This document shows positions 9,415-63,882 of a DNA stretch of 64,000 bases, one piece after another. The notes below the pieces were generated by a model. The model did not search any database. It saw only the letters and a program-made list of their open reading frames with translations, and was not told the origin of the DNA. The number at the start of each line of letters is the position of its first letter. Position 1 is the stretch's first letter. The translations under genes were made by a program, and so were the position numbers. The stretch comes from Amanita rubescens (lineage: Eukaryota; Basidiomycota; Agaricomycetes; Agaricales; Amanitaceae), in NCBI GenBank assembly GCA_015039365.1, contig WION01000049.1, positions 1 to 64,000 of the forward strand. The letters run 5' to 3'.

Positions 9415-9640
9415 AGAAGTTATTAATTTTTTTTGGAAGTGGATTTGGTACGTATAACGAGGATATACCAGATGATTGACGGTGTACGCTTGTTGTTGTT
9501 TTTTACGAGTATACCTATACCTACACCTACATATATCTCTCTTTATTTTTTTCTTCTTTGGATTTGATTGTTGTGTGAGGCGAGCTGGTTACATAAGGGT
9601 CGCTTGCGTGCATTTCGGATGTAGCCTCCGATCTTGTTCG
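9415..9640. other. 3-prime flank of the PAK gene
   Basis: AT-rich, with runs of T and the pyrimidine-rich tatacc/tacacc words seen again behind several membrane-family copies. No gene is visible. The block that is repeated later in the array starts at about 9620-9640. Confidence 0.4.
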
Positions 9641-10093
9641 TAGTTCTCCCTTATCCGTACGTCTCAGCTGGCGAGGTTATAGCTTAATCTCCCACACACA
9701 CACACGTCCGCCCCACGCCCCTGCCAAGCGGAGTTGAGCAGTTTCGCACGATCAATCAACTTCTTATTTTATTAACTTACTCGATTCAGGCGATGTTCCA
9801 GACTTCCAGTCGAATTGCAACAGAACCACGAGTTGTGCCACGGTCTTTACACACAATGCCATGGCCTGATTACAGACGGACGATTGGAAAATTTCGACGA
9901 GGTTATGAGTTGAATAGATGTTAATTACTGGTCGGTATTCATCAAGTACGCATTTAGCGCGTGCTCGGGAAAGGTACAGCACAGTTTACTAAGTAAGTAA
10001 GTGCGCACAGCCTCCCACTGTTCTAAAGAGAATAGATCCACGCTCAGGCACTCACCTATTCTTCCACATCTTCCTCTGCTCTGTAGAGCCCTG
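9640..10093 (+). repeat. Upstream block of array unit A, repeated at 13030-13438 and 17390-17600
   Basis: This block (CA-repeat, then a word with ccaagcggagttgagcag, then a stretch reading CNRTTSCATVFTHNA in one frame) recurs almost unchanged before copy B and, more diverged, at 17390-17600. It looks like the tail of an unidentified coding sequence carried along by duplication. Its last 90 bp are the leader of copy A. The shared CA and pyrimidine tracts may have helped unequal exchange. Confidence 0.6.
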
Positions 10094-11337
10094 ATGCTAG
10101 CGGCCGTCACCATCCTTGCTCAGGATTCAAGCAATGTACCAAACTGCACAGATAACCAATACAACTGGGTAAGCGCGCGTCTAGTACATTCCTCCTGCTG
10201 GATCAACACTGGCCGGAGTAGACATATAACTCGCTGGATCAGAGTCCCTGTTACGTAGCTGTCGCTCTAATCTCGATGGTCAACGCTGGACAAAGTGGGA
10301 TACTTTTCTGATAACTGTATCTATTCCTCAGTTGAGCTAATGTGGTTTTTCTAGCATATACCCTCCCCTCTGTTACATTTCTGGGACAAATCTACGGCCT
10401 CGAGCCTGGTTCAAACACCTTATACTTTTGTAATACCGTCTGGTACTCCTTGCTTTCGGCGTGTGCTCTGTGTCAGGATGGGTCCTGGTTCACGTACGTT
10501 CGCCTGCATTTCCAGGTCAGAATCGTGGACTTGACTCGTTCATCAGATGGCCGGTTTACTCACAAAATTGCAGCCAGACGTATTTGATGGAGTAAGTTCA
10601 ATCATTGGCAGTGCAAGATAGCGCTATTAAAACAGATCTCTAGGTATCCCGGTCCCATCCCTTCAAATACTAGTGTGCCAACTTGGGCTTTTTTAAATGT
10701 GACGGTGTGTACTACTGGACGACAATTTTGTGTCTTCTGATGAGTTACTGAGAAATGAAGGCAACCAACGACAATTTTGACCCTGCAAAGGCATCTAGCC
10801 TCGCTGGTGCGTCTCACTAGAATTGAAGCACAGGCGCCTTGACTAATATCTATTGGTATAGTTGCACCTAGTCCGACTTCTTCGGCATCAACTTCTTCGG
10901 CAGCGACATCTTCAACATCGACATCTTCGACATCGACATCGACATCCCATCCAACTCCTAACACATCTAAGGTTGGTGCTATCGCAGGTGGTACCATCGG
11001 AGGTTTCGTCATAGCGTTGCTCGTTCTGACACTCCTGTTCTATCTCCATAAAAGGCACAACGGGACTACTCCGGCCCCCGTTCCGCTAACCGAACGTTCG
11101 ATATCCATGCGGATAGTGCCCTCTCAGGAACTCTACGTGAGTACTTCCGTTGTCGCTGTTTTACTTGGGATGCTAGTGCAAAGACGATAGAATTCTGACG
11201 AAATCTTTCCCATCCCACCGACAAGGACACCACAGGACGAAGTGCTTTCTGGCCCTCGGCGTCCATCTGGGCAACCCCCACGACGTTTAGTGCACTCCAT
11301 ACAAACGGATTCCGGTACAACGTGGTATTCAGAATAA
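10094..11337 (+). CDS. Cys-rich single-pass membrane protein, family copy A (type-1 tail)
   Basis: Eight exons read through without stops. Order: short hydrophobic start (MLAAVTILAQ), NCTDNQYNW, then YNSLDQSPCYVA. The third coding exon holds FCNTVWYSLLSACALCQDGS; then WPVYSQNCSQTYLME, YPGPIPSNTSVPTWAFLNVT and ATNDNFDPAKASSLA follow. A Ser/Thr stalk, the Gly-rich membrane helix AIAGGTIGGFVIALLVLTLL and a basic stop-transfer HKRH come next. The type-1 tail ends QTDSGTTWYSE. The signal peptide is shorter than in copy G because upstream stops force the ATG at 10094, so secretion efficiency is uncertain. I know no characterised function for the family; the layout resembles fungal cell-surface sensors (signal peptide, Cys-rich head, Ser/Thr stalk, one helix). 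Confidence 0.7.
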
Positions 11338-11344
11338 TTCAAGT

Positions 11345-11825
11345 TGTAGTTTAAGGCATCCTTCTTTTCCAAGTGGAGCGATTGTTTCAGGGAGTATTCA
11401 CCCATCTTTAAGGATACGTGGCTGTATGTGGGGAAGTTATTGTCAGCGAAAGACAGTCCTAGTTATGTGCGAGACTCTTTGGCCTTTGTTGTGTTTTATG
11501 AGTATACCTATATACCTCAGTGTGCCTTTTTACAAATTCTGTTCCCTTTTTTTTACCAGTAGCTTGGTTTCTCAGTATCATAACAAAGGGGAGTTGTGTA
11601 TGAATATAGACGTTGAGCTTGTAACGTAACCTTGTATGATAAAACTTTATTGTCGGGCGCGGGACTCGGAATGTTCAGACGGTCATGACCTCCAGTCGAC
11701 GGCAAGTTCTTATGGACTACGCAGATTCTCAGCCAGTGGTACTATTCGGCCTGATACTGAAATTTTAACAGTGATTTGCATATTTATTCGGTATTTCGCG
11801 GGCTCGATAACGTTGTTTGTAGGGA
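11345..11825. other. Spacer between copy A and the GNAT gene
   Basis: Contains the copy-A 3-prime flank (words such as aaggatacgtggct and tatgtggggaagttatt), which recurs after copies B and C. AT-rich, with no supported gene. Confidence 0.4.
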
Positions 11826-11873
11826 ATGAATCAAGCATGTAGACAGGCTCAGGAAGTGCGCCAAAATTCGGCA

Positions 11874-13029: not shown

Positions 13030-14925
13030 GATGTAGCCTCCGATTTTGTTCGTAGCCCAGTTCTCCCACACACACACATCCGCCCCTGCCAAGCGGAGTT
13101 GAGCAGTTTCGCACGATCGATCAACTTCTTATTTTATTAACTTACTCGATTCAGGCGACGTTCCAGACTTTCAGTCGAATTGCACGAGTTGTGCCACGGT
13201 CTTTACACACACACAACGCCATGGCCTGAATACAGACGGACGATTGGAAGATTTCGACGAGGTTATGAGTTACTTGAATAATTGGTCGGTATTCATCAAG
13301 TACGCGTTTAGCGCGTGCTCGGGAAAGGTACAGCACAGTTTAAGTAAGTGCGCACAGCCCCATTGTTCTAAAGAGAATAGATCCACGCTCAGGCACTCAC
13401 CTATTCTTCCACATCTTCCTCCGCTCTGTAGAGCCCTGATGCTAGCGGCCGTCACCATCCTTGCTCAGGATTCAAGCATACCAAACTGCACAGATAACCA
13501 ATACAACTGGGTAAGCGCGTGTCTAGTACAATCCTCCTGCTGGATCGACACTGGCCGGGGTAGACATATAACTCGCCGGATCAGAGCCCCTGTTACGTAG
13601 CTATCGCTCTGATCGAGATGGTCAGCTCTGGACAAGGTGAAATACATTTCTGATAACTGTATCTATTCCTCAGTTGGTTTGTCTATCATATAGCCTCCCC
13701 CCTGTTGCGTTTCTGGGTCAAATCTACGGTCTCCCGGCCGGTGCAACTACCATATACTTTTGTAATACCGTCTGGTACTCCTTGCTTTCGGCGTGTGCTC
13801 TGTGTCAGGATGGGTCCTGGTTCACGTACGTTCGCCTGCCTTTCCAGGTCAGAATCGTGAACTTGACTCATTCATCAGATGGCCGATTTACTCACAAAAT
13901 TGCAGCCAGACGTATTTGATGGAGTAAGTTCAATCATTGGCAGTGCAAGATAGCGCTATTAAAACAGATCTCTAGGTATCCCGGTCCCATCCCTTCAAAT
14001 ACTAGTGTGCCAACTTGGGCTTTTTTGAATGTGACGGTGTGTACTACTGGACGACAATTTTGCAACTTCTGACGAGTTACTGAGAAATGAAGGCAACCAA
14101 CGACAATTTTGACCCTGCCCAGGCATCTAACCTCGCTGGTGCGTCTCACTAGAATTGAAACACAGGTGCTATGACTGATATATACTGATATAGTTGCACC
14201 TAGTCCGACTTCTTCGGCATCAACTTCTTCGGCAGCGACATCTTCAACATCGACATCTTCGACATCGACATCGACATCACATCCAACTCATGACACATCT
14301 AAGGTTGGTGCTATCGCAGGTGGTACCATCGGAGGTTTTATCATAGCGTTGCTCGTTCTGACACTCCTGTTCTATCTCCATAAAAGGCGCAACGGGACTA
14401 CTCCGGCCCCCGTTCCGCTAACAGAACGTCCAATATCTATGCGGATAGTGTCTAGTGATGCCTCTCAGGAACTCTACGTGAGTATTTCCGTTGTCGCTGT
14501 TTTACTTGGGATGCTAATACAAAGACGATAGAATACTAACGAAATCTCTACGGCTCCTATCCCGCTGGCATTGACAAGGATCGAACGCATACCGCACTGG
14601 CGGGACGAAGTGCTTTCTGACCCTCGGCGTCCATCTGGGCGATCCCCACAACATTTAGGTACAAGAGAGATTTACAAAACCGGAGTGCGCTCCATACAAA
14701 CGGATTCCGGTACAACGTGGTTTTCAGAATAATTCAGGTTGTAGTTTAAGGTATCCTTCTTTTCCAAGTGGAGCGATTGTTTCAAAGAGTCGACTGGTTA
14801 TTCACCTATCTTTAAGGATACGTGGCTACTATGTGGGGAAGTTATTCAGCGAAAGACAGTTGCGAGACACTTTGGCCTTTGTTGTGTTTTATGAATATAC
14901 CTATATACCTACACCTAGTATTGAT
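13030..14925 (+). repeat. Tandem segmental duplicate of 9640-11610
   Basis: The stretch from the CA-rich spacer through copy B and its 3-prime flank repeats the copy-A unit in the same order and direction, with small indels. A third, more diverged unit covers about 15000-16700 (copy C). The arrangement indicates stepwise tandem duplication. Confidence 0.8.
13439..14732 (+). pseudogene. Family copy B (type-1 tail), probably splice-damaged
   Basis: A close duplicate of copy A: NCTDNQYNW, CNTVWYSLLSACALCQ, IPSNTSVPTW, the AIAGGTIGG membrane helix and a longer type-1 tail ending TDSGTTWFSE. All exon bodies except the third entry are fine. The acceptor of intron 2, cag or tag in other copies, reads tat before CATATAGCC (about 13690). 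The nearest alternative AGs give a frameshift or an in-frame stop. Unless a cryptic acceptor is used, the protein would be truncated after about 50 residues. The damage is seen; pseudogene status is inferred. Confidence 0.6.
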
Positions 14926-15127: not shown

Positions 15128-16480
15128 ATGTACCTCTCGAACTGGAGAATAGGCCCACATTCACCTATTTTTCGTCTGCTCCATCGAGCTCGTACGATAC
15201 TTTATCTTCAATATTGGCTTGGTCTAGTAGCTGTTCCTGTCATCGTCGCTCAGGATTCAAGTAATATAGCAAACTGCACAGATAGCCGATATGACTGGGT
15301 AAGCGCACATCTTGTATCACTGCTTGCTCAACACTGACCGGAGTAGACATTCAGCCCACTGGGTCAGAGCCCCTGTTACGTTGCCAACGTTATATCGGAG
15401 CAGTGCTCCGGACAAAGTAGGTTACTTTCTGATAACCTGAATCAGTTGAGCAACCGTGGTTCGTCCAGTGTATGGCGTCCCCCCTACTGGGCCGGAACAC
15501 AACTACAGCCCGCTCCCCTTCATACTACGCCGATTACACATGCTTTTATAATACTGTCTGGTACTCCTTGCTCTCGGCGTGTGCTCTGTGCCAGGATGGG
15601 AACTGGCTCACGTACGTTCGCCTGCCTTTCCAGGTCAGAATCGTGAACTTGACTCATTCATCAGATGGCCGGATTACTCACTCACTTGCAACAAGACGTA
15701 TTTGATGGAGTAAGTTAAATCTTTGGGAGTGCAAGATATATTAAAACAGACCTCTAGGTATCCCGATCCCATCCCTTCAAATACTAGTATACCAACCTGG
15801 GCTTATTTAAATGTGACTGTGTGTATGGATGACAATTTTGCGACTTCTGACGAGTTACTGAGAAATGAAGGCAACCAACGGCAATTTTGACCCCGCCGCG
15901 GCATCTAGCCTCGCTGGTGCGTCGCACTAGAACTAAAGCACAGGCACCATGACGGATATCTACTGGTATAGTTGCAATTGGTTCGAATTCTTCTGCATCT
16001 TTAACATCGACCTCGATATCTTCAACATCAACGTCTTCTTCGATATCGACATCCCATCCAACTCTTGACACATCTAAGGTTGGTGCTATCGCAGGTGGTA
16101 CCATCGGAGGTTTCGTCATAGCGTTGCTCGTTCTAACACTCCTGTTCTATCGCCATAAAAGGCGCAACGGGACCCCCGTTCCGCTAATCGAACGTCCAAT
16201 ATCTATGCGGACAATGACTTGGGGTGCCTCTCCGGGACTCTACGTGAGTATTTCCGTTGTCGCTGTTTTACTTGGGATGCTAATACAAAGACGATAGAAT
16301 TCTGACGAAATCTCTCCCATCCCACCGACAAGGATCGAACGCACGTCGCAGGACGAAGTGTTTTCTGACCCTTGGCGTCCACCTGGACAATCCCCACAAC
16401 CTTTAGGTACAAGAGAGATTCACCAAACCGGAGTGCGCTCCATACGAACGGATTCCGGTACAACGTGGTTTTCAGAATAA
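15128..16480 (+). pseudogene. Family copy C (type-1 tail) with frameshift and altered start
   Basis: Signal-peptide region TILYLQYWLGLVAVPVIVAQ is preserved, but the usual ATG is ACG; an upstream in-frame ATG exists at 15128. NCTDSRYDW and SPLGQSPCYVAN follow. In the third coding exon the CxCN motif (here CFYN) is in a different phase from the exon start, so translation stops soon after. Later exons remain open, down to the stalk, AIAGGTIGGFVIALLVLTLL and the tail TDSGTTWFSE. One net indel plus a lost cysteine point to a recent pseudogene. Confidence 0.6.
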
Positions 16481-16799: not shown

Positions 16800-17190
16800 A
16801 CGTCCCGCAAGCAACATATGCATAGCTGTTCCTGTCATGGTTGCTCAGAATTCAAGTAATGTACCAAACCGCACATATTACTGGGCAAGCGCACGTCTTG
16901 CATCCCTGCTAGCTCAACACTGACCGGAGTAGACGTTGGATCAGAGCCCCTGTTGCGTTGCTGACGTTTTAATGGACCAGTAGACCGGAAAAAATGAGTT
17001 ACTTTTCTGATAACCCGAATCGGCTAAGCTGACGGTGGTTCGTCCAGTGTATGGTACCCGCTCTCTTATCCCGACAACCCGCTCCCTTCAAACTTCGCCA
17101 ACTTCACATGCTTTTGTAGTATCGTCTGGTACTCCTTGATCTCGGCGTGTGCTGCTTGCCAGAATGGGACCTGGTACTCGTACGTTTAAT
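16800..17190 (+). pseudogene. Remnant of family copy D
   Basis: Only the first three exons are traceable. NCTD has become NRTYYW, the first donor is GC in a poor context, the second exon contains an in-frame TAG, and the third exon has lost CNTV (the DNA gives tgtagtatcgtctgg). The copy breaks off at about 17185, where PAK-kinase-derived sequence begins. Non-functional. Confidence 0.7.
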
Positions 17191-17879: not shown

Positions 17880-18290
17880 CCTCAGGACTATGTCTTGCTG
17901 CTGTACCTCCTATACCAAGTGAAAACTGCACAGATCCCCAATTCTTCTGGGTAAGCCCACGTCTTCCATTTTGCTGGCTCAACTCTGACCGGAGTAGACG
18001 TTTAACTCGTTGTGTCAGAGCCCCTGTTCCGTTTCTCCTCTTTTAATCTCGCAGAGCACTGGACAACGTGGGTCACTTTTCTGACAACTTAACTGTATTT
18101 AATTAAACTAACGGTGGTTCATCCAGCGTATATCATGGCCCCAATCTCATACCCGAGAGTAGCGTACCACGTAAAAATCGAACCGGCCTTCGCCAATGCC
18201 ACGACCTTCTGTAATACGGTCACGTATTCGTTAATCTCGGCGTGTGCTGCCTGTCAGTCGGGGGTTTGCTACTTTCCTTATCTGCTCCAC
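17880..18290 (+). pseudogene. Family copy E, truncated after its third exon
   Basis: Exon 1 ends SENCTDPQFFW but has no in-frame ATG. Exon 2 is FNSLCQSPCSV and exon 3 holds FCNTVTYSLISACAACQSG. Directly after exon 3, where a donor should be, the DNA continues as the leader of copy F (tccacgaacaacatacgcac). So everything from intron 3 to the tail is missing, and the head of E is fused to the promoter of F, as expected from unequal recombination or deletion. Confidence 0.7.
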
Positions 18291-18374: not shown

Positions 18375-19840
18375 ATGATGCTTTATGTCTGTTGGCTTGG
18401 TCTAGCAGCCACGCCTGTCATCGTTGCTCTGAATGCAGCAAACTGTACAGATAGCCAATATTACTGGGTAAGCGCGTGTCTTGTATCCCTGCTGGCTCAA
18501 CACTGACAGGAATAGACATTTAACTCGCTGGGTCAGAGCCCCTGTAGCGTTGCTGACGTTTTAATGATTTATTGCACCGGACAAGGTAGATCACTTTCCT
18601 GATAACCCAAATCAGTTGAGCTAATGCCGGTGGTTCGTTCAGCGGTTATTATCCCCGCTATACCCCCGGGAGAACAATACGCCCCGCTCGGTTCAACCGG
18701 CGCCAACGTCAAATGTTTTTGTAATACTGTCTGGTACTCCTTGATGTCGGCGTGTGCTGCTTGCCAGAATGGGTACTGGCCTACGTACGTTCGATTTGTT
18801 CTCGGCCTTTCCAGGAATCGTGAACTTGACCCATTCATCAGATGGCCGAACTATTCAGCAGTTTGCCCCCAAATATATTTGATGCAGTGAGTTCAATGGT
18901 CACTGCAGACTGACCTATTAAAGGAAACCTTTAGGTATCCCAGTCCTATCCCAGTGTCAAATACCAGTGTGCCAAACTGGGCATATGTGAACGTAACGGT
19001 ATGATTGATGATTCCACCTGCTTCTAACTAGTAGTAACTGACAAATGAATTCAGGCAACCAACAATACTTTTAACGTTGCTGCTGCGTCTATCCTCGCAG
19101 GTGCGTCTCACTAGAATCAAAGCGCAGGTGCTGTGATTAACGAATTTTCTTGTATAGCTGAAGATACTCCAACCGATTCTGTATCTCTCACCTCGACATC
19201 TGCGTCGACCTCGTTTACGTCAACGTCGGCATCCACATCCACATCGACAATACCGGCATTGATATTAGCATCAATAACACCGGTACCAACATCAAACTCA
19301 ACTTCTAATTCATCTAAAACTGGTACTATCGCAGGCGGTACTGTCGGAGGTCTTGTCATAGGTTTGCTTGTTGCGACATTCCTGTTGTGGCTCCGTATGA
19401 GGCACAGGCGCTCCAGAATCGTTGTTCACGCATCGCCACAAGTGAATGTACAAGTGAATGAACGTGAACGAAGTATTATGAGCGTGCGTTGCTCATTGAC
19501 TGAGTCTCCTTCATCTCTTGTATTACGTCCTCTACCAACCGAATCTTCAACATCTATGCAGCCAATGTTTTTGCACGCCCATCGGGAGCCCTGTGTGAGT
19601 ATTTCCGTTGCTGCTGTCCGACTCTGGATGCTGATAAAAAGACCATAGGATACTGACGATATCTCTAACTCATCTCGCATCCCACTGGCAAGGGTCGAGC
19701 GCACGCCGCGGAGCGAACTGCTTTCCGACGCTTCATGTCCACTCGGCGAATCCTCGCAACCTTTAGATAGTGGAGGGTTTTACCAACCCGGAGGGGGCTC
19801 CTGGAGGGATTCCTGTGTTACGTGGGTTTCAAGGGAATGA
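18375..19840 (+). CDS. Cys-rich single-pass membrane protein, family copy F (type-1 tail)
   Basis: Eight exons, all open with GT-AG borders. MMLYVCWLGLAATPVIVA is the signal peptide; NCTDSQYYW, FNSLGQSPCSVAD, CFCNTVWYSLMSACAACQNG, WPNYSAVCPQIYLMQ, IPVSNTSVPNWAYVNVT and ATNNTFNVAAASILA follow. The stalk is a long Ser/Thr run. The helix is TIAGGTVGGLVIGLLVATFL, followed by a basic RMRHRRSR. The cytoplasmic part is longer than in A, and the type-1 tail ends VTWVSRE. A second, type-2-like tail exon lies immediately downstream at 19856. Function unknown; expected at the cell surface. Confidence 0.75.
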
Positions 19841-19855
19841 TTCAAGTTACCATAG

Positions 19856-20155
19856 GAATCTGACGACATGCTTGTCACATCCTCTACTATTAGCCCACGG
19901 TTCAGAGGCGAGGGTCCGCGTGGACTGCTTCACAACACGGTTCATAATTGGGGTCGAGTTGGACAGTACGATACTGATATCCCTAAGCTATTAGCATTTA
20001 CAAGCATGTTGATAAGCGTCGTGTCTGCATCGGCGAGGTTTATTTCAATCGTATTCATTTCATTTCGGGTTGGGGCTGGCCGTCAAGTAAGTATCTTGTT
20101 TTCTATGGTCAACTTGTGCCACACGTTGAAAGTGAAAGAACAATCATTTTACTAA
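19856..20155 (+). other. Orphan type-2 tail exon downstream of copy F
   Basis: Preceded by an AG (catag), the DNA reads in phase 0 as ESDDMLVTSSTISPRFRGEG, PRGLLHNT, HNWGRVGQYDTDIPK. This matches the type-2 tail (DPDDIPTSST.PRFR, PRGLLPNTEHHWGQVGQYYA). The usual stop after PEL is replaced and the frame stays open to 20155. It starts 16 bp after the type-1 stop of copy F. It could be an alternative last exon of F or a recombination relic. Confidence 0.6.
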
Positions 20156-21990: not shown

Positions 21991-23393
21991 ATGATACTCC
22001 ATGTCTTTCAGTGGCTTCAACTTCTAGCTATAATAGCTCCTGTTAGCTTTGCTCAGGACACGGGCAATGTACCAAACTGCACAGATGACCAATACGATTG
22101 GGTGCGTGTCTTGCATCCCTGCTGGCTCAACACTGACCAGGGTAGACATATAATTCAATGGGTCAGAGTCCCTGTTACGTCGCTGACGTTTTAATGACAC
22201 AATGCATCGGACACCGTACGATCCTTTTTTCTGATAATCTATCCCGAGTCAGTTGAGCTGACGGTAGTTTGTCCAGCGTATTCCATGGTGCCTCTTCAAC
22301 GCCCGGGGCTAGCATATGTGATTCCCGAAGCCCCGTCCAACCCCTCATGCTATTGCAATTCGATCTGGTATTCGTTAATCTCAGCATGTGCTGTTTGTCA
22401 GAATGGGACCTGGCTCCCGTACGTTAACGTAGTCATTTGCTTCTCCGAGAATCGTGAACTTAACTGATTGCTCAGATGGCCAGAATACATACTATATTGC
22501 CACAGTGTTGTATATTTGACGGTGTGGGTTCAATTTTCGGCGCAAGACAGCACTATTAAGGGAAATCTCCAGGTATCCCTTTCATATCCCGTCAAATACT
22601 AGTGTGCCAGGGTGGGCTTATCTAAATGTGACGGTATGTTTGATTGACGATCCTGCCCGCTTCGAATGAGTAACAACAAATCAATTTAGGCAACGAACAA
22701 TAGTTTTGATCTTGGGGCGGCGTCTAACCTCGCTGGTGCGCCTCACTAGAAACGAAGCACAAGTACTATGATTAATACGTTTTCTACTTGTATAGCTGGA
22801 CTTGGTGTGACGGCTCCTATATCTTTTGTATCGACATCGGCGACATCGGCATCAGCACCGACATCACCGACATCGACATCAAACTCCTCTTTTCATTCAT
22901 CTGAAACCAATGCGGGAACGATCGCAGGTGGCGTCATTGGAGGTGTCCTTGGAGGGGCGTTAATCTCGGCATTGTTGTTCTGGCTTTACACGAAGCGCAA
23001 GGGCTCCTGGCTTGACCCTGAGATGTCGGAGCCCCCTCCATTAACTCGGTTTTCGACGGCTCCGTCGCCTCTATCTACCGAAACTCCAGCTGTTCCTTCG
23101 CCTCGTCCACCGACTGGCACTCCAGCTGGTCCCTCGCCTCCTCCGCCGACCGCCGCTTCTCCGAATCTTATGCGCCAAGAATATCAACAAGCTCTTCCAA
23201 AAACCTATGTGAGCATTTGTTACCATCATTTTGACTTGGGATACTAATATAAATGCCATAGGATCCTGACGACATCCCTACATCCTCTACTTACCCCCGG
23301 TTCAGGCCCGAAGCCCCGCGCGGGCTACTTCCCAACACGGAACATCATTGGGGTCAAGTAGGACAATACTATGCTGATATCCCTGAGCTTTGA
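21991..23393 (+). CDS. Cys-rich single-pass membrane protein, family copy G (type-2 tail)
   Basis: Eight exons, about 340 residues, no damage seen. The signal peptide is MILHVFQWLQLLAIIAPVSF. The head contains NCTDDQYDW, YNSMGQSPCYVADVL, CYCNSIWYSLISACAVCQNG, WPEYILYCHSVVYLT, IPSNTSVPGWAYLNVT and ATNNSFDLGAASNLA. A Ser/Thr stalk leads into the helix GVIGGVLGGALISALLFWLY and the basic TKRK. A Pro-rich cytoplasmic linker (PSPRPPTGTPAGPSPPPP) follows, then the type-2 tail DPDDIPTSST, PRGLLPNTEHHWGQVGQYYA, DIPEL. It is the only intact + strand copy with the tail type otherwise seen in the - strand array. Probable surface sensor or adhesin; function inferred from layout only. Confidence 0.78.
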
Positions 23394-36897: not shown

Positions 36898-38306
36898 TCA
36901 AAGTTCAGGGATATCAGCGTAGTATTGTCCAACTTGACCCCAATGATGTTCCGTGTTGGGAAGCAGCCCGCGCGGGGCCTCGTCCCTGAACCGTGGAAAT
37001 GTAGAGGATGTAGGGATATCGTCGGGATCCTACGATATTTGTATCAGCATCCAAAGTCAAGTGGCGGGAACGAATACTTGCATGGGTTTTTTGAAGAGCA
37101 TCCTGATATACTTGCTGCACAGGGGTCGGAGAGTTGGTCAGCGGAGGTGAGGGTATAGCTGTAGTATCAGTCCATGGAGGCGAGGGAACAGCTGAAGTGT
37201 TGGTCGACGGAGGAGGCGAGGGAATAGCTGAAAACCCAGTCGATGGAGGAGAATCCATTATCTTGCGTTCACTTATCTGAGGTGACATTCCAGAGTCAGG
37301 ACGGGAAGCCTTGTGCTTCGTGTGAAGCCAGAACAACAGCGCTGAGATTAATGCCCCTCCAACGACACATCCGATGACGCCGCCTGCGATGGCGCCAACG
37401 TTGGTTTTGGATGAATGAGAAGAAGGGGAACTTGATGAAGACGATGTTGATGTTGATGCCGATGTCGACGCAGAAACCGTCGAACTAGATCCAACTAATC
37501 AAGAAGGAAGTTTATTAATCACTGTGCTTGAGCTTCAGTTCTCGTGAGACGCACCGGCCAGATTATGCGCCGCGGTAGGGTCAAAAGCATCGTTAGTTGC
37601 CTAAATTCGTTTGTGGGTTACTCGTTGTAAGCGAACAGAATTTTCATTCACACGCACCGTCACATTCAGATAAGCCCAGCCCGGCACACTAGTATTTGAA
37701 GGGATAGGATCGGGAAACCTAGAGATTTCGTTTAATAGTGTTGTACTGCATTGAGAATTGATCTCACTGCATCAAATATGTTTGGTTGCAATTTTGTGCG
37801 TAATTTGGCCATCTGATAAATCGGTCAAGTTCACAGTCCGTCACTACAAATCAAACGAACGTACGTGAGCCAGGTCCCATTCTGACAAATAGCACACGCC
37901 GAGATCAGGGAGTACCAGACCGTATTGCAGTAGCACGAGCCATTGGAGAAGGATGAACTGAACGAGTATGCAGCTCCCGGGGTTGAAAGAGAGCCAATAG
38001 TATACGCTAGACGACCACCGTTAGCTCAACTGCCTCGAGATAGTTATGGTTACCAGAAAGCGCCCTACTTTGCCCAATGGATTGCATCGCTAAAACGTCG
38101 GCAACGTAACATGGGCTCTGACCCATCGAGTTGTATGTCTACACCGGTCAATTTTAAGCCAGTAGTAATGCAAAGCGCGTGCTTACCCAATTGTATTCGT
38201 CATCCGTGCAGTTTGGTATATTACTTGAAATTGAAATTGAGTCCTGAGCAACGCTGACAGGCGCCACAACTAGAATTTGAAGCCACTGAAAGACATAAAG
38301 TATCAT
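36898..38306 (-). CDS. Cys-rich single-pass membrane protein, family copy I (type-2 tail)
   Basis: Eight exons, all open. Signal peptide MILYVFQWLQILVVAPVSVA; then NCTDDEYNW, YNSMGQSPCYVADVL, CYCNTVWYSLISACAICQNG, WPNYAQNCNQTYLMQ, IPSNTSVPGWAYLNVT, ATNDAFDPTAAHNLA. The stalk is rich in Ser/Thr. Helix GVIGCVVGGALISALLFWLH is followed by the basic TKHK, a Pro/Ser-rich cytoplasmic linker (IPSPPPSTNTSAVPSPP) and the type-2 tail ending EHHWGQVGQYYADIPEL. The last intron has a GC donor (CAT/GCAAGT at 37081). First - strand copy, just beyond RBR gene 3. Confidence 0.78.
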
Positions 38307-43010: not shown

Positions 43011-43077
43011 AAAAGAAAATTTTGAACCTTACCGATTCGGACACATTGGTATATTCATAAATGCTGCTCAAAGCTCG

Positions 43078-44385
43078 GGGAGATCAGCATAGTATTGCCC
43101 AATTTGACCCCAATGATGTTCCGTGTTGGGGAGCAGCCCGCGCGGGCCCTCGTATCTGAACCGTGGGATTGTAGAGGATGTAGGAATATCGTCGGGATCC
43201 TACAGTATTTATATCAGCATCTCAAGTCAAGTAGCGGGAACAAATGCTTGCATTTCTTTGTTGAAGACCATTGGTCGATGGAGGAGGTGAGGGAACAGGT
43301 GTAAGCCCAGTCGATGAAGGCGGATCCATAATTTTATGTTCACTCGTCTGAGGCGACGTTCCAGGGTCAGGCGGGGAAGTCCTGCACTTCTTGTAAAGCC
43401 AGAACAACAAAACTAAGATTAACGCCCCTCCAATGGCACACCCGATTGCGCCGCCTGCGATCGCACCAGCTTTAGCTTTAGATAAACGAACAGAGGGGGA
43501 GTTTGATTCAGACAATGCTGATGTTGATGTTGAGGCCAACGTCGACGTTATCGAGGTAAAAGACGCAGAAGCCGTCGAACTAGATCCAACTATACAAGAA
43601 AATTGATGAATTACGGAGCCTGAGCCTCAGTTCTCGTGAGACGCACCGGCCAGGTTAGACGCCGCGACAGGGTCAAAATCATCGCCGGTTTTCTAAAGTT
43701 CATTTGTCGATTACTCGTTGGAAGCAGACAGAACCGACACCCACACGCACCGTCAGATTCATATAAGCCCAGCTTGGCACACTAGTATTTGAAGGGATAT
43801 GACCGGGATACCTAGAGATTTCCTTCAATAATGTTGTGTTGCACTGACAATAGATCTCACTGCATCAAATATGTTTGGTTGCAATATTGTGAGTAACTTT
43901 GCCATCTGATAATCGGTTAAGTCCACAATCCGTCACTACAAATCAAACATACGTGATCCAGGACCCATTCTGACAAATAGCACACGCCGAGAGCAAGGAG
44001 TACCAGACCGTATTGCAGGAGCACGTGGCGTTGAGGAAGTTTTCTGGGAACTCGTATGAATCTCCCGGGACTGAAAGAGGGATGATAGTATACACTGGAC
44101 GAACCACCGTTAGCTCAACTAACTTGAAATAAATCAGAAAAGGGTCCTACTCTGTCCGAGGCACTGGTCCATTAAAGCGTCTGCAACGTAACATGGGCTC
44201 TGACCCATCGAGTTGAATGTCTACTCCGGTCGATTTTGAACCAGCAGGGATGCAAAGCACGCGCTCACCCAGTTGTAATGGACATTCGTGCACTTTGGTG
44301 TATGACTTGAAATTGAGCCCTGAGCACTGACGCTGACAGGGGACACTACTAGAACTTGAAGCCACTGAAAGACATAAGGTATCAT
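43078..44385 (-). CDS. Cys-rich single-pass membrane protein, family copy J (type-2 tail)
   Basis: Eight open exons. MIPYVFQWLQVLVVSPVSVS signal; CTNVHYNW (the NCTD motif altered to KCTN); FNSMGQSPCYVADAL; CSCNTVWYSLLSACAICQNG; WQSYSQYCNQTYLMQ; IPSNTSVPSWAYMNLT; KTGDDFDPVAASNLA. The helix AIAGGAIGCAIGGALILVLL is followed by YKKC. The cytoplasmic linker is shortened: the VQQ.YQDAL segment of the other copies is deleted, leaving NGLQQRN before the last intron. That intron has a GC donor (43251). Type-2 tail intact (EHHWGQIGQYYADLPEL). Confidence 0.72.
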
Positions 44386-45406: not shown

Positions 45407-46746
45407 TCAAAGCTCAGGGATATCAGCATAGTATTGTCCAACTTGACCCCAATGATGTTCCGTGTTGGGAAGCAGTCCCCGTGGGCCCTCTTTTCTAAAC
45501 CGCGGGATTGTAGAGGACGTAGGGATATCGTCGGGATCCTACAGTATTTATATCAGTATCGCAAGTCAAGTGGAGGCAATGAATGCTTACGGAGGTATTT
45601 TGAAGTGCATCCTGATATGCTTGCTGCTCAGGGGTCGGAGAGTCGGTCAACGGAGGAGGTGAGGGCACAGGTGAAAGCCCGGTCGATGGAGGCGGATCCG
45701 TTATCTTGTGTTCAATCGTCTGAGGCGACGTTTCGAGGTCAGGCCGGGAAGCCCCACGCTTCGTGTAAAGCCAGCACAACGCTAATATTAACGCCCCTCC
45801 AAAGGCACACCCGATTGCACCGCCTATGATCGCCCTGGCGTCGGTTTTAGATGAACGAGAAGAGGGGGAGATTGATGTAGACAATGCTGATGTTGATGTT
45901 GAGGCCGACGTCGACGTCAATGAGGTCGATGTCGATGTCGACGTAAAAGACGTAGAAAGTGTCGTAGCTACAACTATACAAGAATAAAATTTGTTAGCCA
46001 TGGTGCCTAGGCATCAGTTCTCGTGGGACGTACCGGCCTGGTAATACGCTGCGTTATAGTCAAAAGCACCGGCGGTTGCCTAAATTCATTTGTCGATTAC
46101 TCCAGACAGAATCATCATCATTCACACACACCGTCACATTCATATAAGCCCAGCTTGGCACACTAGTATTTGAGGGGATATGGCCGGGATACCTAGAGAT
46201 CTCCTTTAATGGTGTTATATTTCACTGGCAATTGATCTCACTCCATGAAATATGTTTTGTTACAAAATCTTGAGTATGTTGTCCATCTGATCATGATAGA
46301 TGGGTCAAGTTCACAATTTGTCACTACAAATCGAACGTACTCGGAATAGGACCCATTCTGACAAATAGCACACGCCGAGAGCACGGAGTACACGACAGTA
46401 TTACAAAAGCACGGGTCATTGGTAGCCGTGTATGTTGACATTGTGGATGGAAGAGGGACGAAACTATACACTGGACGAACCACCGTTAGCTGAACTGACT
46501 TGGGTTATCGGAAAGTGAGCTACTTAATCCGGTGCACGGATCCGTTAAAAGTTCAGCGACGTAACAGGGACTTTGACCCAGCGAGTTAAATGTCTATATC
46601 GATCAGCGTTGAGCCAGCAGGGATACAAGACACGTGCTCACCCAGTTGAATTCGCTATCCGTGCACTTTGGTATATTTGGATCCTGTGCGAAGCTGAAAG
46701 GGGCCACTACTAGAAGTTGAAGCAACTGAAAGACATAAAGTATCAT
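45407..46746 (-). CDS. Cys-rich single-pass membrane protein, family copy K (type-2 tail)
   Basis: Eight open exons with GT-AG borders. Signal MILYVFQLLQLLVVAPFSFA; KCTDSEFNW; FNSLGQSPCYVAELL; CFCNTVVYSVLSACAICQNG; WTTYSRFCNKTYFME; IPSNTSVPSWAYMNVT; ATAGAFDYNAAYYQA. A long Ser/Thr stalk precedes the helix IIGGAIGCAFGGALILALCW and YTKRG. A Pro/Ser linker (LSPVPSPPPLTDSPTPEQQA) leads to the type-2 tail ending EHHWGQVGQYYADIPEL. The first head loop differs strongly from copies I and J; tail and helix do not. Confidence 0.76.
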
Positions 46747-47764: not shown

Positions 47765-49166
47765 TCAAAGTTCAGGGATATCAGCATAGTATTGTCCAAC
47801 TTGACCCCAATGATGTTCCGTGTTGGGAAGCAGTCCCCGCGGGCCTTCCTTTCTGAACCGCGGGATTGTAGAAGATGTAGGGATCTCATCGGGATCCTAC
47901 AGTATTTATATCAGCACCGCAAGTCAAGTGGAGGAAATGAATGCTTGCATAGGTTTTTTGAAGTGCATCCTGATACACCTGCTGCACAGGATTCGGAGAG
48001 TCGGTCAACGGAGGAGGTGAGAGTATAGCTGAAGTATCAGTCCATGAAGGAGAAGGAGGCGATGGAGCAGCTAGAGTGCTGGTCGCTGGAGCAGTTGGGG
48101 GAACAAATGAAAGCCCAGTCGATGGCCAGGAAGCCCTGCGCTTCTTGTACAGCCACAACAACAACGCTAAGATTAACGCCCCTCCAAAGGCACATCCGAT
48201 GGCCCCGCCTGCGATCGCGCCAGCGTCGGTTTTAGGTGAATGAGAAGAGGGGGAGTTCGGTATAGACGATGTTGATGCTGATGTTAAGGCCAACGTCGAG
48301 GTCAACGAGGTCGATGCCGGTGTCGAGGTAAAAGATCTAGACGCAGAAGCCGTTGAAGCAAATTCACCTATACAAGAGAATTTATGAATCATGGTGCCTG
48401 AGCTCCAGTCCTCGCGAGACGCACCGGCCACTGCATACGCCCCACCAATGTCAAAACCATCGCCGGATTCCTAAAATTCATATGTTGATTCCTCGTTGGA
48501 AGCGGACAGAATTGTCATTCACCACCCTCGTCACATCCAGATAAGCCCATCTTGGCACAATAGTATTTGATGGGATAGGATCGGGATACCTAGAGATTTC
48601 CTTTAACAGTGTTGTATTCCACTAGCAATTCATCTCACTCCGTCAAATATATTTGGGTGCAATTTTGTGAGTACGTTGGCCATCTGATAAATCGGTCAAG
48701 TTCACAATCCGTCACTACAAATCGAACGCACCCGTAATAGTCCCCGCTCTGACAAATAGCACACGCTGAGATTAAGGAGTACCAGACCGTATTGCAGTAG
48801 CACGAGTTGTTGGAGAAGGGTGGAGTGAACATGTATGCATGGCCGGACGGGAGAGAGGCGAAATTATATGCTGGACGAACCACTGTTAGCCCAACTGACT
48901 CGAGATAGATATGGTTGTCAGAGGAATGTCCTACTTTGTCCGGTGCATTGCTCCATTAAAGTGTTGGCAACGTAACATGGGTTCTGACCCATCGAGTTGA
49001 ATGTCTACTCCGGTCGATTTTGAGCCAGCATGGATGCAAAGCGCGTGCTCACCCAGTAGGATGCGATATCCGTGCAGTTTGGTGTATTACTTGAAATTGA
49101 ATCCTGAGCAGCATTGACAGGAGCCACCACTAGAGCTTGAAGCCACTGAAAGACATAAAGTATCAC
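47765..49166 (-). pseudogene. Family copy L (type-2 tail), start codon and one splice site altered
   Basis: All exon bodies are open: VILYVFQWLQALVVAPVNAA, NCTDIASYW, FNSMGQNPCYVANTL, CYCNTVWYSLISACAICQSG, WPTYSQNCTQIYLTE, IPSNTIVPRWAYLDVT, ESGDGFDIGGAYAVA, helix AIAGGAIGCAFGGALILALL, and the type-2 tail. However, the ATG is GTG (49166), and the donor after LDVT reads AG instead of GT (about 48534). An upstream in-frame ATG and a nearby GT (acgagG/gtggtg) might rescue either defect. The last intron has a GC donor (47948). Probably in early decay. Confidence 0.55.
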
Positions 49167-53940: not shown

Positions 53941-53941
53941 T

Positions 53942-54887: not shown

Positions 54888-54959
54888 GGTCCTGTGATAG
54901 GCAGATATCATACTAAGTAGCAGTGTGGGACCGGTTGTTGAAATGCACATAACACGCGG

Positions 54960-55600
54960 GCGAAAGTGACACTGGTGACGGGGTAAGCTTGTTTAATGAC
55001 GCACACAGGACGTGTTCCCCACTTCAGATTTGGACTTGCAGCGCTTCGGCTTCTCTCGACACTCGGTCTCGTTCGCGTGCGAAATCCGTGTTCTGCATTG
55101 TTTCCGAGTCTAGGTGAAAGATGTCAGAACAAAAAAGGGTAAAAGAACAGCCAGGCCGCACCCTCTCTTCATCCTTTGCCCGTTGAGTCATTTGCACCGC
55201 TAATGAACCAACAACTTCAACAAGCGGTTTAATGTTCTCGCTGAACCACTCTTGAACGAAGTTTACAACCCTCAGGTCAAAGAGATTGAGCCATTATTGA
55301 AGGCATATGAAGTGTGGGTCAATGCCGACAATAAGTCTGGTCCATCGTGTCTTCTCGCTGTCCGTAAGCGAGAGTCTGAGGACGCAGCACACGAGGGAAG
55401 AAAGAACCTATGACAAATTGTTACTGTCGTGACTCGTCATTTGGAACACGACACACTCACCGGTTCCTAGTACAATCTGAGGCTTTGGGCGACAGCCTCA
55501 CCCAATTGTGCTAAGGCACGTCACGGTGGCTGTGCGACAATGATCGCTGTTTACTAATACTTGGCTTACAATTACAATTACAATTACGTGTACATCCATC
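54960..55600. other. Spacer left of the Tnp2 transposon
   Basis: Host-like GC content, no supported gene. A short ttacaattacaattacaatt repeat at 55565 precedes the transposon gene. Terminal inverted repeats of the transposon were looked for here and not found. Confidence 0.35.
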
Positions 55601-55608
55601 CTACCACC

Positions 55609-59186: not shown

Positions 59187-59330
59187 TTCTTCCCTTTCAT
59201 TAACTCATCAAATCATTCAACTGAGCCTGTGATTTACATAAGTGCATTCAACTGCACATTACATTCTTGTTATTTGCATATGCCCTATTACTTGGATTGC
59301 AGAATATCATATCTATATTTCTGATTTGGA

Positions 59331-59650
59331 CTATACTCTGATGCACCAGTGCTCCTTGCCACTGACGAAGGCACAAACCATCCTCGCCTTCCCGCTAGAG
59401 CCGCAGTTCATCACACTCGTAGCCACGCTCTCCTGCTCCTCTCCCGCGAATAGCATGTGATGTAGTGAACACGTACTTGTCTTGCTCTCCACCATCCATA
59501 TCCCAGTCGCGGCCCCAGTCATCGTCCAGCAATCCTGCAGCGCGCAAAGCCTTCACAGCTCTTGGCCCAAGCCAATCATGCTGCGGCCGTCAAAATTGGT
59601 CCATCTCATGTCAAAACACAGTTGTACGCTGCGCAGAGCAACATCGGCGA
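59331..59650 (-). pseudogene. Decayed fragment of an unidentified host gene
   Basis: The - strand reads LGPRAVKALRAAGLLDDDWG, then DMDGGEQDKYVFTTSHAIRG, RGAGERGYECDEL, but with stops on both sides and a TAG soon after. Composition is host-like, in contrast to the AT-rich transposon just to the left. Family unknown. Confidence 0.35.
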
Positions 59651-59659
59651 TGGTAATTC

Positions 59660-60475
59660 ATAAGCGATGCTTATATTGACTAGTTTCGTTCACAGTCTGT
59701 GCTTCAGCTCTGCAAGAGAGGGAGGTAAGGGTTGTTGTCGAATATGGGGAAGTAGGCAAGGTACCAGATCTGGGGTGAGATGATGGGTGGGGAAAGACGG
59801 GGGGAAAGACGCGCTCACGTTTGAGAAAGGCAGATTTAGAAGTTGGAGGCCGCGTATGCTGATTTTTTACCAAAGTCCATGGAAGGTGCAACCAAGGTCG
59901 AGTGCATCTGCCAAACGAGCCTATATTGTTCGCTTTCTGCATGGTTGGAGTGGGACCGGTTGAAGGGGGAGTTGGCGGGAATGATTGGAGTTAGCGAAGG
60001 AAGGGCAGAAGGCGAATCGACATGAAGTGGGCATATGCGTCGAATGTGGGAAGGGAAAGGACTTGTGGCAGCAGCTGGGGCAGGACAGGCGGCGGAGAAC
60101 TTGCTGGGCATCTCAGATCCGTGCTGGGAGGCAGGATGTTCATCGTACCTGGGTGTTCTGGGTGAGATGAGCGTGAGATGAGCGTGAGTTGGAGTGCTGA
60201 GCATGAGTGGCAGGTGTCGGTGGGCAGTTGAGGGACTGAGAACAGGCGGTGGGCATCGTTCAAGCCACACTTGAGTAATGCAGCGCCACAGAAGAGAACC
60301 GTAACGGCGGCAGCCAGAGATGGCCAAATTTACCACAGCAAATACATCAGATTGACACCAAGATAAGATATTGGCGCTCACAGGACGACGACGTAGGTGG
60401 TCGAGAAGCTGAAACGTAAGCTCGGATCTGCTCGGCTCCACGGCTCCGAGCCGAGCCGTTACAACACTAATTGAT
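59660..60475. other. Stretch ending in a GC-rich element-like terminus
   Basis: Frames here look random. At 60420-60470 the sequence tccgagccgagccgttacaa, then cactaattgatc, resembles the end of an hAT-like or MITE element, but no matching opposite end was found in the window. Confidence 0.3.
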
Positions 60476-60479
60476 CCTA

Positions 60480-60834
60480 CTAATTCTCGTCTGATTTTGA
60501 AGGCATTGGACGTTTAAAAGCAAGATATCTTATCTCATTTTCAGTCTTTGAGCTTGTTATTTTCACAATCTAAAATGAATGTTTTTCAATAACTTATAAG
60601 AGTTAATTTCAAAATTACATGAATAAAAATCAGTATCCAAAATTTAGGCTTTGATTTTTGACGCCCGTCGGATGGGCACTGAAAAACACAGACCCAACAT
60701 TCACACTCCGAACCATTGATTTTAAACGAATCAAAGTCCAGGTCATTGATTTTCAGGCTATTTACTTCCCACAGTGGCCATCAACGCATCAGGTTTTTCA
60801 ATGTTAGAATAGTAAAGCGAAACATGAAATTACC
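60480..60834. other. AT-rich spacer
   Basis: No gene. At 60775-60800 the word agtggccatcaacgcatcagg matches the spacer before RBR fragment 1 (38570), marking another broken end of the right-array repeat unit. Confidence 0.4.
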
Positions 60835-61590
60835 GTGGCAGTCGGGTTTCGACATGCTAGTGAAGCTGTGATGGTCTTCCGTCCGATTACTCGCTGGGAT
60901 GCTTTCCTCATCCTCTTCGGCGCTACGTCCATGCAAGTTGGGTCAATTTTATTCAACCTGCTTCCTGAGACAAACATGGTCATCAGCACCGATCTCACTC
61001 CCGATCTATCCACCACCACGACAATAACTACAACCACTACCCTCCTGGAAACTGTTTCCCCAACTCCCACCGTATCTTCAGAAAAAGGACCTCCTGGTTG
61101 ATCCATTGGAACCGCTCTTTCACATGCTCCAGCTCAGGGAGGGACTCTCTTCCAGGATCTCTACTTGTCAAACGGCACGTCACCCTCCTCATAGTGTCTC
61201 CATCAAAAGAAGACTTTCCAGAGACTCGAATGACGACCTCTACTGACCTTTCAGCTGAAAACACACCGGAAAACATCGCTCTTCGGGAACCGACCAAGGA
61301 AACTATGGACTTTCTAACACCAGAGCAGGCACAGCAACGTTGGGGGTCTGAGGACGAAAGCGCCTACGAGGTATTGTCGGCTAAGGGCAACACTGTAAGC
61401 TCCCTGCGTTCTTCTCGCTACTCGGCTTATAATATCGCGACAGATCTTGTATAGCCGCCACCGTAGCGGAAGTTTTCCTCGGTACATGGGCATTCTGGCT
61501 AGGAGCGTTCACGCAATCATCACCTTCCCTCTCCCTTTCTCTTTCGCTCCCAAGACGATTCCGCCCCACCACCCATTCACCGCGCCATCT
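60835..61590 (+). CDS. Candidate small membrane protein, unrecognised
   Basis: Possible exons read MAVGFRHASEAVMVFRPITR, WDAFLILFGATSMQVGSILF, a Thr-rich stretch, then ENTPENIALREPTKETMDFL, TPEQAQQRWGSEDESAYEVL; after an intron near 61393-61440 they read ATVAEVFLGTWAFWLGAF. Two hydrophobic helices are visible. Junctions between the first two parts are unclear, so this may be a decayed gene. A fragment of the first helix region recurs at 42205. Confidence 0.3.
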
Positions 61591-61599
61591 TTGTTAAGT

Positions 61600-62080
61600 T
61601 CCAAAGAAGGACAGTATGACAGGCCTGGCTTCAACGGCTACTTCTTATGCGCCACGTTTCCAATTCCATCTCTCCCCGTCGAATCGCAGTTTTCAAGACC
61701 CCGTACGTTCTACCCGTTCCGTCGACGACTCGGACAAGTTTTTCATTACGCGTTCGGGAGGCTGTGTGGCGATTCCGGCGTTAGGAGCGGATGCGGCCGT
61801 CAACTGGATGGCTGACTTGACAAGGAGGTGACACCAGATTTAGTCCGGAGCGGCGCGTTTCACGCTTTGCTGCTCAGGTCGAAGAAGATTACAATCCCGC
61901 ACATCTCCCCCTTCCAACCATCACCTTTCCTACCATATTCCCGGCGTGAGTTGGAGAACTCACATCCCGAAAGTTAGTCTCATGAAGCGCCGTTTGAACG
62001 AGACCTGGTCATGAACTCATACTGGTATCTAATATAAAAGAATGGAGATGAAACAGTCCAAACTGCAACTGCAACCATTC
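61600..62080. other. Unassigned stretch
   Basis: One short frame (61616-61831, DSDKFFITRSGGCVAIPALG then ADAAVNWMADLTRR) has protein-like composition, but no family is recognised and no exon context was resolved. Confidence 0.25.
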
Positions 62081-62084
62081 CCTT

Positions 62085-62525
62085 GAAATCCATGTAGCGC
62101 TGGAACTTGACCATATGGAGCCCCTTTCGAGTCGGTAAAACTCTGTATCACCTAAAGGTTGTGGGGATTCCCTAGGTGAACGCCAGGGGTCCGAAGGCAG
62201 TTCGCCCTGCGGCGTACGCTCGACTCCTGCAGGTGGCACTGGGATGGGAGACGACTCGGTAGAGATTCCGTGGGTATTCTATCGTCTTTTTATCAGCACC
62301 CTGAATCAAGCAACACGGAAGGCGCGAGCGATGAGTGGGCAAGAAATGGGAAAGTCGAATGCAATAGATTAAGCAATAAGTTAATGTACATACTAGCTCG
62401 CTGTATTTCTATCTACAATATAGTTTTTGTTCCACGCATACAAGCTTGTACGGCGCTTTGTACAAACAATGCTGCTATAAACAACCCCGCAAAGACACAT
62501 CCGATGAGACTGCCCGCTGGTATTA
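62085..62525 (-). pseudogene. Dead type-1 family copy: membrane-helix relic plus type-1 tail exon (unit M)
   Basis: On the - strand, 62525-62400 carries the same decayed helix as units J-L (AGSLIGCVFAGLFIAALF). It is followed at about 62290-62085 by a type-1 tail exon: VERTPQGELPSDPWRSPRES, PQPLG, ending ATWISRE. This identifies the dead partner downstream of each - strand gene as a type-1 copy. Confidence 0.65.
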
Positions 62526-62558
62526 GATAAATGAACAGAAAATTTTAAACCTTGCTGC

Positions 62559-63882
62559 TTAAAGCTCAGGGATATCAGAATAGTATTGTCCAACTTGACC
62601 CCAATGATGTTCCGTGTTAGGGAGCAGTCCCCGTGGGCCCTCGTATCTGAACCGCGGGATTGTAGAGGATGTAAGGACATCGTCGGGATCCTACAGTATT
62701 TATATCAGCATCGCAAGTCAAGTGGAGGCAACGAATGCTTACGTATGTATTGTCAAGTGCATCCTGATACGCTTGCTGCACAGGGGTCGGAGAGTCGGTC
62801 GACGCAGGAGGTGAGGGTACAGGTAAAAGCGGAGTCGATGAAGGCGGATCCGTTATCTTGTGTTCAATCGTCTGAGGCGACGTTTCAGGGTCAGGCCGGG
62901 AAGCCCCACGCTTCGTGTAAAGCCAGAACAACAACAACGCTAAGATTAACACCCCTCCAAAGGCACACCCGATTGCAACGCCTATGATCGCGCTGGCATT
63001 GGTTTGAGATGAATGAGAAGAGAGGGAGGTTGATGTTGATGTTGATGTTGAGGCCGACGTTGACGTCAATGAGGTCGATGTCGGTATCGAGGTAAAAGGC
63101 GCAGAATGCCTCGAACTAGGTGCAACTATACAAGAATAAAATTTGTTAATCATGGTGCCTGGGCTTCAGTTCTCGTGAGACGTACAGGCCAGGTAATATG
63201 CTGCAGTACAGTTAAAAGAACCGGCGGATGCCTAAATTCATTTGTCGATTACTCGTTGGAAGCGGACAGAATTCACACGCACCGTCACATTCGTATAAGC
63301 CCAGTTTGGCACACTAGTATTTGAAGGGATATTGCCGGGATACCTAGAGATTTCCTTTAATAGTGTTGTATTACACTGGCAATTGATCTCACTCCATGAA
63401 ATATGTTTGGTCGCAAAATCTTGAGTATGTTTTCCATCTGATAAGATGGGTCAAGTTCACGATTTGTCACTACAAATCGAACGTACTCGGAAAAGGACCC
63501 GCTCTGACAAATAGCACACGCCGAGAGCATGGAGTACACGACAGTATTACAAAAACACGGGTCATTGGTGGCCGTGTATGCTGATGTTGTGGATGGAAGA
63601 GAGACGAAACTATACGCTGGATCATACGTTAGCTGAACTGACTTGGGTTATCGGAAATTTGGTTACTTAATCCGGTGCATGGATCCGTTAAAAGTTCAGC
63701 GACGTAACAGGGGCTTTGACCCAGCGAGTTAAATGTCTATTTCGATCAGCGTTGAGCCAGCAGGGATACAAGACGCGCGCGCTTACCCAGTCGAAACTGC
63801 TATCAGTGCACTTTGGTTTATTTGGGTCCTGAGCAAAGCTAAAAGGGGCCACTTGAAGCCACAGAAATACATAAAATATCAT
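62559..63882 (-). CDS. Cys-rich single-pass membrane protein, family copy M (type-2 tail)
   Basis: Eight open exons. Signal MIFYVFLWLQVAPFSFA; KCTDSSFDW; a FNSLGQSPCYVAEL-type second exon; CFCNTVVYSMLSACAICQSG; WKTYSRFCDQTYFME; IPSNTSVPNWAYTNVT; ASAGSFNCTAAYYLA. A Ser/Thr stalk precedes the helix IIGVAIGCAFGGVLILALLL and WLYTKRG. The linker is PVPSPPASTDSPTPVQQAYQ. The type-2 tail ends EHHWGQVGQYYSDIPEL. Closest to copy K. The 3-prime neighbour is a dead type-1 copy. Confidence 0.76.

Follow-up and report, generated by a model that had tools for sequence, protein, structure and literature searches.

The window analysed here is a stretch of 64,000 nucleotides from Amanita rubescens (contig WION01000049.1 of assembly GCA_015039365.1, positions 1 to 64,000, forward strand). 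It carries two arrays of a gene family that we refer to as the CNTV family and whose products are candidate surface proteins with a Cys-rich head. Spliced alignment revealed 12 copies of the family in the 64-kb window, of which A to G are located on the forward strand (10.1-23.4 kb) and H to L on the reverse strand (36.9-63.9 kb), the two arrays being separated by other genes. An earlier sequence-only reading of this DNA had proposed at least 13 copies, but a profile search of the window gave 12 CNTV exons, with all remaining rows having E values of 0.2 or higher. The same reading had correctly described the left copies (seven) as running rightward and the right copies (five) as running leftward, and the shared blocks that it had listed do recur: NCTDxxYxW, NSLGQSPCYVA, CNTVWYSLxSACAxCQ, IPSNTSVPxW, a Ser/Thr stalk and a Gly-rich helix. 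Its extent for the arrays, 9640..63882, is exact at the right end; the first exon near 9640 was not found, and copy A begins at 10094 in the spliced-alignment model as well as in the database model. The eight exons that it had attributed to all copies, including the one encoding the transmembrane segment, are present in ten of the 12, and the other two, D and E, are 5' fragments containing exons 1-3 only.

The ten copies that follow the eight-exon plan have one of two types of tail. Copy A (10094..11337, +), which corresponds to database model P0010, has a type-1 tail (..ELY/NSDEI..TTWYSE) and a short leader, as does copy B (13439..14732, +), in which the end of exon 2 is uncertain and whose 3' part is spanned by database model P0109. 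Copy C (15194..16480, +), also of type 1, has ACG at the position of the usual ATG, and P0019 matches over its 3' part. The fragments D (16819..17183, +) and E (about 17924..18263, +) are followed by copy F (18375..19840, +), whose type-1 last exon at 19649-19840 begins with DTDDISNSSRIP. Directly 3' of this exon lies a type-2 tail exon that has diverged and no longer has its stop (19853..19999, +; tail match at 19865-19990, 73% identity). Type-2 tails are encoded by copy G (21991..23393, +; exon 8 at 23262-23390) and, on the reverse strand, by H (36898..38306; exon 8 at 36901-37029; P0001), I (43068..44385; exon 8 at 43071-43199; P0003), J (45407..46746; exon 8 at 45410-45538; P0005), K (47765..49166; exon 8 at 47768-47896; GTG at the usual ATG) and L (62559..63882; exon 8 at 62562-62690).

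For eight copies, database models were compared with those obtained by spliced alignment: the models of A, H, I and J are identical letter for letter, and the database models of B, C, F and K are shorter or different. The script models were faulty in detail at exon 2 of B and at exons 7-8 of F; those of F were then read by hand. The frames of G to L are free of internal stops, and the open frame continuing beyond QDALQKTY in the type-2 copies is an intron. The last intron has a GC donor (GCAAGT or GCAAGC) in H, I and K (36901-37082, 43071-43252 and 47768-47949, -) and a GT donor in G, J and L. Just 3' of the tail exons of I, J and L, a second and weaker membrane-helix segment was detected (42914-42994, 45265-45345 and 62464-62517, -; E value of the last, 0.039), which may be what is left of a duplicated 3' module. 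Three database records (P0002, P0006 and P0011) contain uninterrupted proteins of 302-322 residues that cover the eight genomic exons and belong to JGI contigs of 1,100-2,207 bases; these are probably transcripts, and the corresponding genes would hence be expressed.

A first homologue search retrieved 143 proteins. The named homologues among the 120 in the matches listed come from many mushroom genera, e.g., Amanita, Laccaria, Tricholoma, Suillus, Russula, Mycena, Armillaria, Trametes and Schizophyllum. A class check of two outlying ones, from Sphaerobolus and Coniferiporia, placed both in the Agaricomycetes, to which the remaining named genera presumably also belong, and a hit of another search that bears a willow name (P0124) was taken as contamination. 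Judged by these matches, the family appears to occur across the Agaricomycetes. It has no Pfam domain of its own: a scan of two window proteins gave no Pfam match above the cut-off. The commonest weak match, to the ErbB membrane segment (83 of 104 members), was put down to the Gly-rich helix. Literature searches listed no account of the family; Snowball, a seven-helix protein (PMC10949477), belongs to a different family.

The head contains eight Cys columns, each with Cys in at least 96 of 100 non-gap rows of the family alignment; as exceptions, H lacks the third Cys and A the third and fourth. Structure prediction of this head, which the sequence-only reading had called for, gave an ordered helical fold with high confidence. 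We used AlphaFold2 to model copy H (alignment A1, 104 sequences) and the Laccaria relative P0040 (alignment A2, 89 sequences). In the model of H, the head (residues 31-160) has block values of 82-97 in the predicted local distance difference test (pLDDT), residues 202-224 form a helix, and the tail was modelled with low confidence; the head of P0040 reached 90-98. Foldseek returned no significant match in the PDB for either head, which does not prove a new fold, as small disulphide-rich helical domains of the predicted kind are hard to match.

In G to L the type-2 tail exon encodes DPDDIPTSSTIPRFRYEGPRGLLPNTEHHWGQVGQYYADIPEL, or a sequence near it, followed by the stop codon. Most of the Agaricomycete relatives have a YDPxDPSTFP-like block and then YxGxPE[LVI] at the very end of the protein. 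Leaving out the homologues named A. rubescens, 105 were listed, of which 67 have [PAG]E[LVI] as their exact C-terminus (0.09 expected from shuffles), 61 contain the strict block Y[DN]PxxPxTxP (0.000 expected in shuffles of the same proteins), and 46 have both. This end is found in copies G to L and in 75 of the 120 listed homologues; some of the homologues lacking it are truncated gene models. Because a conserved residue stands at the extreme C-terminus, these comparisons suggest a partner that reads the free end. Since the type-1 and type-2 tail exons open alike (DxDDIxxSSxIP), the two types look like the result of a tandem duplication of the last exon, one of the duplicates having taken over in the type-1 copies; F would still contain both.

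Next to its constant tail, the family has a diverging head. We calculated the ratio of nonsynonymous to synonymous change (omega) with Nei-Gojobori counts and a codon bootstrap for all 15 pairs of the six type-2 window copies, pairs that are not independent of each other. The last exon (43 codons) has an omega of 0.14 (0.04-0.32) and the head one of 0.82 (0.60-1.15). The variable part (the first part of exon 3 and exons 4 and 6) reached 1.32 (0.85-2.06), versus 0.51 (0.29-0.89) for exon 2, CNTV and exon 5; the values for the helix, the stalk and the cytoplasmic part of exon 7 were 0.52, 0.96 and 0.55, respectively. Synonymous divergence (dS) is similar in head and tail, and the tail has therefore been kept by selection and not by copying. 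Maximum likelihood (ML) estimates for 20 sequences agree on the contrast: 0.849 for the head, 1.350 for the variable exons, 0.225 for the tail, 0.705 for the helix and 1.177 for the cytoplasmic part of exon 7. With omega forced to 1, the tail lost 23.8 log units, the head 1.8 and the variable exons 2.2, values that are approximate because the second fit fixed kappa as well. The contrast between a diverging head and a constant type-2 tail, noticed in the sequence-only reading, thus holds at equal dS, and evolution is not uniform over the exons; uniformity would have counted against that reading.

The family tail is also found on other heads. A search of the whole assembly with the tail exon gave 41 matches. 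Three of these, on different contigs (L021 on C497, L024 on C65 and L025 on C568), belong to a gene with a leader, a CFEM domain and the family tail, and without a CNTV exon; its protein P0012 scored 41 bits against the CFEM profile (cut-off 22). According to blastn, L021 and L025 match the CFEM genes L071 and L074 at 77-79% identity as far as position 990-1077, and six CNTV genes at 72-81% identity from position 1092-1144 onward. From these alignments, the gene appears to be a chimera in which a CFEM head was joined, within the stalk, to the stalk, helix and tail of the CNTV family. The hydrophobic C-terminus of L071 and L074 looks like a glycosylphosphatidylinositol (GPI) signal. Between the tails of L021 and L025 and the six window tails, omega is 0.16 (0.05-0.34) at a dS of 0.366. 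A further gene, L018 (on C468), has a short mucin-like leader in front of the same stalk, helix and tail (tail omega 0.17, 0.05-0.48). Its database model, P0014, has a questin-oxidase fragment preceding the leader and looks like two genes merged in annotation. Three loci (L061, L062 and L063) have a more distant helix and tail, and no CNTV head was detected within the 2.7-2.8 kb examined. The CFEM chimera, which carries the same tail, speaks in favour of one shared intracellular partner; the partner itself remains inferred.

The 75.7-Mb assembly contains several versions of the array locus, which besides the window are located on contigs C10, C77, C703 and C778. They differ in copy number: C778 has 14 CNTV exon copies, compared with 12 in the window. 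For 14 pairs of haplotype counterparts, omega is 0.21 (0.11-0.38) in the head and 0.33 (0.12-0.80) in the tail; adding one pair from another locus (15 pairs) raised the head value to 0.30. The pairs K-L002 and K-L003 were excluded from these sets and are reported separately below. At the six loci other than K, head exons are 0-6.7% apart, except for exon 1 of L versus L010 (11.5%), a suspected alignment artefact as the predicted proteins are identical. The 3' flanks at these loci can diverge more, up to 37.6% (G-L022).

Copy K has heads that are hyperdivergent between haplotypes. Compared with L003 (C778), exons 3, 6, 4 and 1 diverge by 30.2%, 28.3%, 20.0% and 16.7%, respectively, versus 10-13% for exons 2, 5 and 7, 10.0% for the introns, 5.4% for the tail exon, and 2.9% and 2.0% for the flanks. 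Compared with L002 (C77), exon 6 diverges by 26.1%, exon 3 by 10.8%, exon 1 by 7.9% and exons 2, 4 and 5 by 1.6-6.7%, and the flanks are 3.9% and 2.4% apart; L009 (C703) is nearly identical to K. The head omega of K-L002 is 3.53 (1.53-22.85; 0.2% of bootstraps at or below 1), and 3.01 without exon 6 (1.2% of bootstraps at or below 1), with 0.44 for the rest of the gene; it is 0.99 for K-L003 and 1.10 for L002-L003. Because K had been picked as an outlier, the K-L002 value is a lead and not proof. The closest match elsewhere in the assembly to the exon-3 stretch of L003 has 65% identity, and the raised divergence of the K introns is compatible with allelic lineages of great age or with transfer from a copy that is not in the sample. 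The gene model of L002, P0008, starts at an upstream ATG that is absent from K. The interval between K and L is also longer in the window: the CNTV exons of the two copies are 14.8 kb apart, versus 3.0-3.4 kb on C778, C77 and C703. The extra sequence of about 11 kb (about 49400-61000) contains an open frame with a tnp2 transposase domain (PF02992) at 56438-58141 and is likely a transposon insertion in the window haplotype.

We propose, at about even odds (0.5), that the CNTV genes encode a repertoire of receptors or adhesins whose heads bind different ligands and whose type-2 tails dock on one cytoplasmic partner. We favour this reading because the tail is constrained and the head near neutral, the CFEM chimera re-uses the tail, the C-terminus is fixed, an ordered helical head and one membrane helix are predicted, copy number differs between haplotypes, and the K locus has divergent heads. 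The copies would be type-I single-pass proteins, presumably at the cell surface, in which a small disulphide-locked helical head on top of the Ser/Thr stalk displays variable stretches (the end of exon 1, the first part of exon 3, the region after ACAxCQ into exon 4, and exon 6). The Gly-rich helix would span the membrane and the last exon would supply the tail with its fixed terminal peptide. The heads may recognise different ligands, either from outside or on neighbouring cells, the type-2 tails would share a putative docking partner, and new specificities could arise by duplication of heads or by swapping heads onto the constant tail. The output may be signalling or anchoring, and in either case we infer it.

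Several observations weigh against this proposal. The type-1 copies A, B, C and F do not have the conserved tail end, the usual ATG is absent from C and K, and the leaders of A and B are only about 10 residues long. The simple version of the proposal is further challenged by the haplotypes: of the seven loci for which a total of 12 pairs were compared (A, G, H, I, J, K and L), all but K have conserved heads, and at most loci the constraint on the tail does not exceed that on the head within this sample. Given the head omega of 0.21, most copies look like fixed specialists. The cytoplasmic part encoded ahead of the last exon shows no conservation (omega 0.55 by counting, 1.18 by ML), and in the variable exons the excess of omega over 1 does not reach significance family-wide, so that family-wide positive selection was not demonstrated. 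Finally, the family tail was seen on other heads in A. rubescens only.

A wider version of the proposal, which we consider speculative and rather unlikely, is that these genes form an undescribed modular receptor system of mushroom-forming fungi. Its constant docking tail would be fixed across the Agaricomycetes, CNTV, CFEM and bare mucin heads would be swapped by recombination in the Ser/Thr stalk, the arrays would form the specificity repertoire, and the hyperpolymorphic K might act in recognition of self, partner or microbe. To our knowledge, the surface receptors with which mushroom fungi recognise non-self, partners or hosts are poorly known. A class-wide unnamed family, a predicted head unmatched in the PDB, a re-used constant tail and one hyperdivergent allelic head offer concrete entry points: one tail peptide could fish out the partner of many surface proteins, and K is a single locus for population typing.

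The strongest alternative, which we hold to be unlikely but worth taking seriously, is that the tail is a sorting or endocytosis signal on non-signalling cell-wall or adhesion glycoproteins, the shared partner being a trafficking adaptor. A short fixed C-terminal peptide on unrelated heads would also suit an exit or retrieval signal, and the lack of conservation in the remaining cytoplasmic part is in line with this; however, most sorting motifs are shorter than the tail exon with its 43 codons, and the exon is constrained throughout (omega 0.14).

The copies could also be cell-wall integrity sensors like yeast Wsc1 or Mid2, with a stalked head for detecting wall stress and a tail that recruits a Rho guanine nucleotide exchange factor (GEF). 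The yeast cell-wall sensors Wsc1-3 have a Cys-rich head (WSC, PF01822), a Ser/Thr stalk, a single helix and a cytoplasmic tail, and the CNTV gene models share this layout, including a Ser/Thr-rich stalk, the predicted helix at 202-224 and a short tail; a Wsc-like way of working is possible by analogy. However, the CNTV head is a different, predicted all-helical domain with eight Cys, and the family is large and tandem. No WSC match was found in two window proteins, in four relatives or among the 25 listed of the 96 Pfam families touching 104 members. A mucin-like stalk and a Gly-rich helix are common to the CNTV proteins and Mid2/Mtl1 (PF04478), but Mid2 is not known to have a comparable eight-Cys head. 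The Mid2 profile gave no match above the cut-off, and weak ones in 3 of 104 members (best E value 0.023); the fused-looking protein P0029 reached an E value of 0.0017 (18.6 bits, cut-off 23.2). Some same-family mushroom proteins are named "Mid2 domain-containing" in the databases, and others "Transmembrane protein" or "Epidermal growth factor receptor-like" (PF21314). This last label seems to rest on the membrane helix; it is below the cut-off in the members scanned singly and precomputed in some homologues. The kinship with Wsc/Mid2-type sensors raised in the sequence-only reading therefore remains an analogy, and as diversifying heads and hyperdivergent alleles at one locus are more in keeping with a variable ligand than with a constant wall polymer, we consider a role as wall sensors quite improbable.

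Least probable of all is that the copies are mostly relaxed, decaying tandem duplicates with drifting heads, and the head/tail contrast meaningless for recognition: the fragments D and E, the lost usual starts of C and K, the short leaders of A and B and a head omega near 1 among paralogues point that way, but G to L have a constrained tail and frames free of internal stops, haplotype counterparts have conserved heads (in the 14- and 15-pair versions alike), ten distinct type-2 sequences share seven of the eight Cys without exception, and the head omega of K-L002 exceeds 1.

The CFEM domain (PF05730) also has eight Cys in a helical secreted domain, with a similar spacing of the last five, and one CFEM gene has the family tail. 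Comparison with a small six-sequence CFEM profile detected no homology of the CNTV head to this domain (hhalign probability 0.4%), and CFEM is not among the 25 listed of the 96 Pfam families. The assembly contains a second CNTV array, of which each contig version (C332, C418, C476 and C234) has about seven CNTV exons; the tails of this array are not among the type-2 tail-exon matches. Between the two arrays of the window, at 31433-36116 on the forward strand, there are at least two genes with IBR domains, which we read as putative RBR-type ubiquitin ligases.

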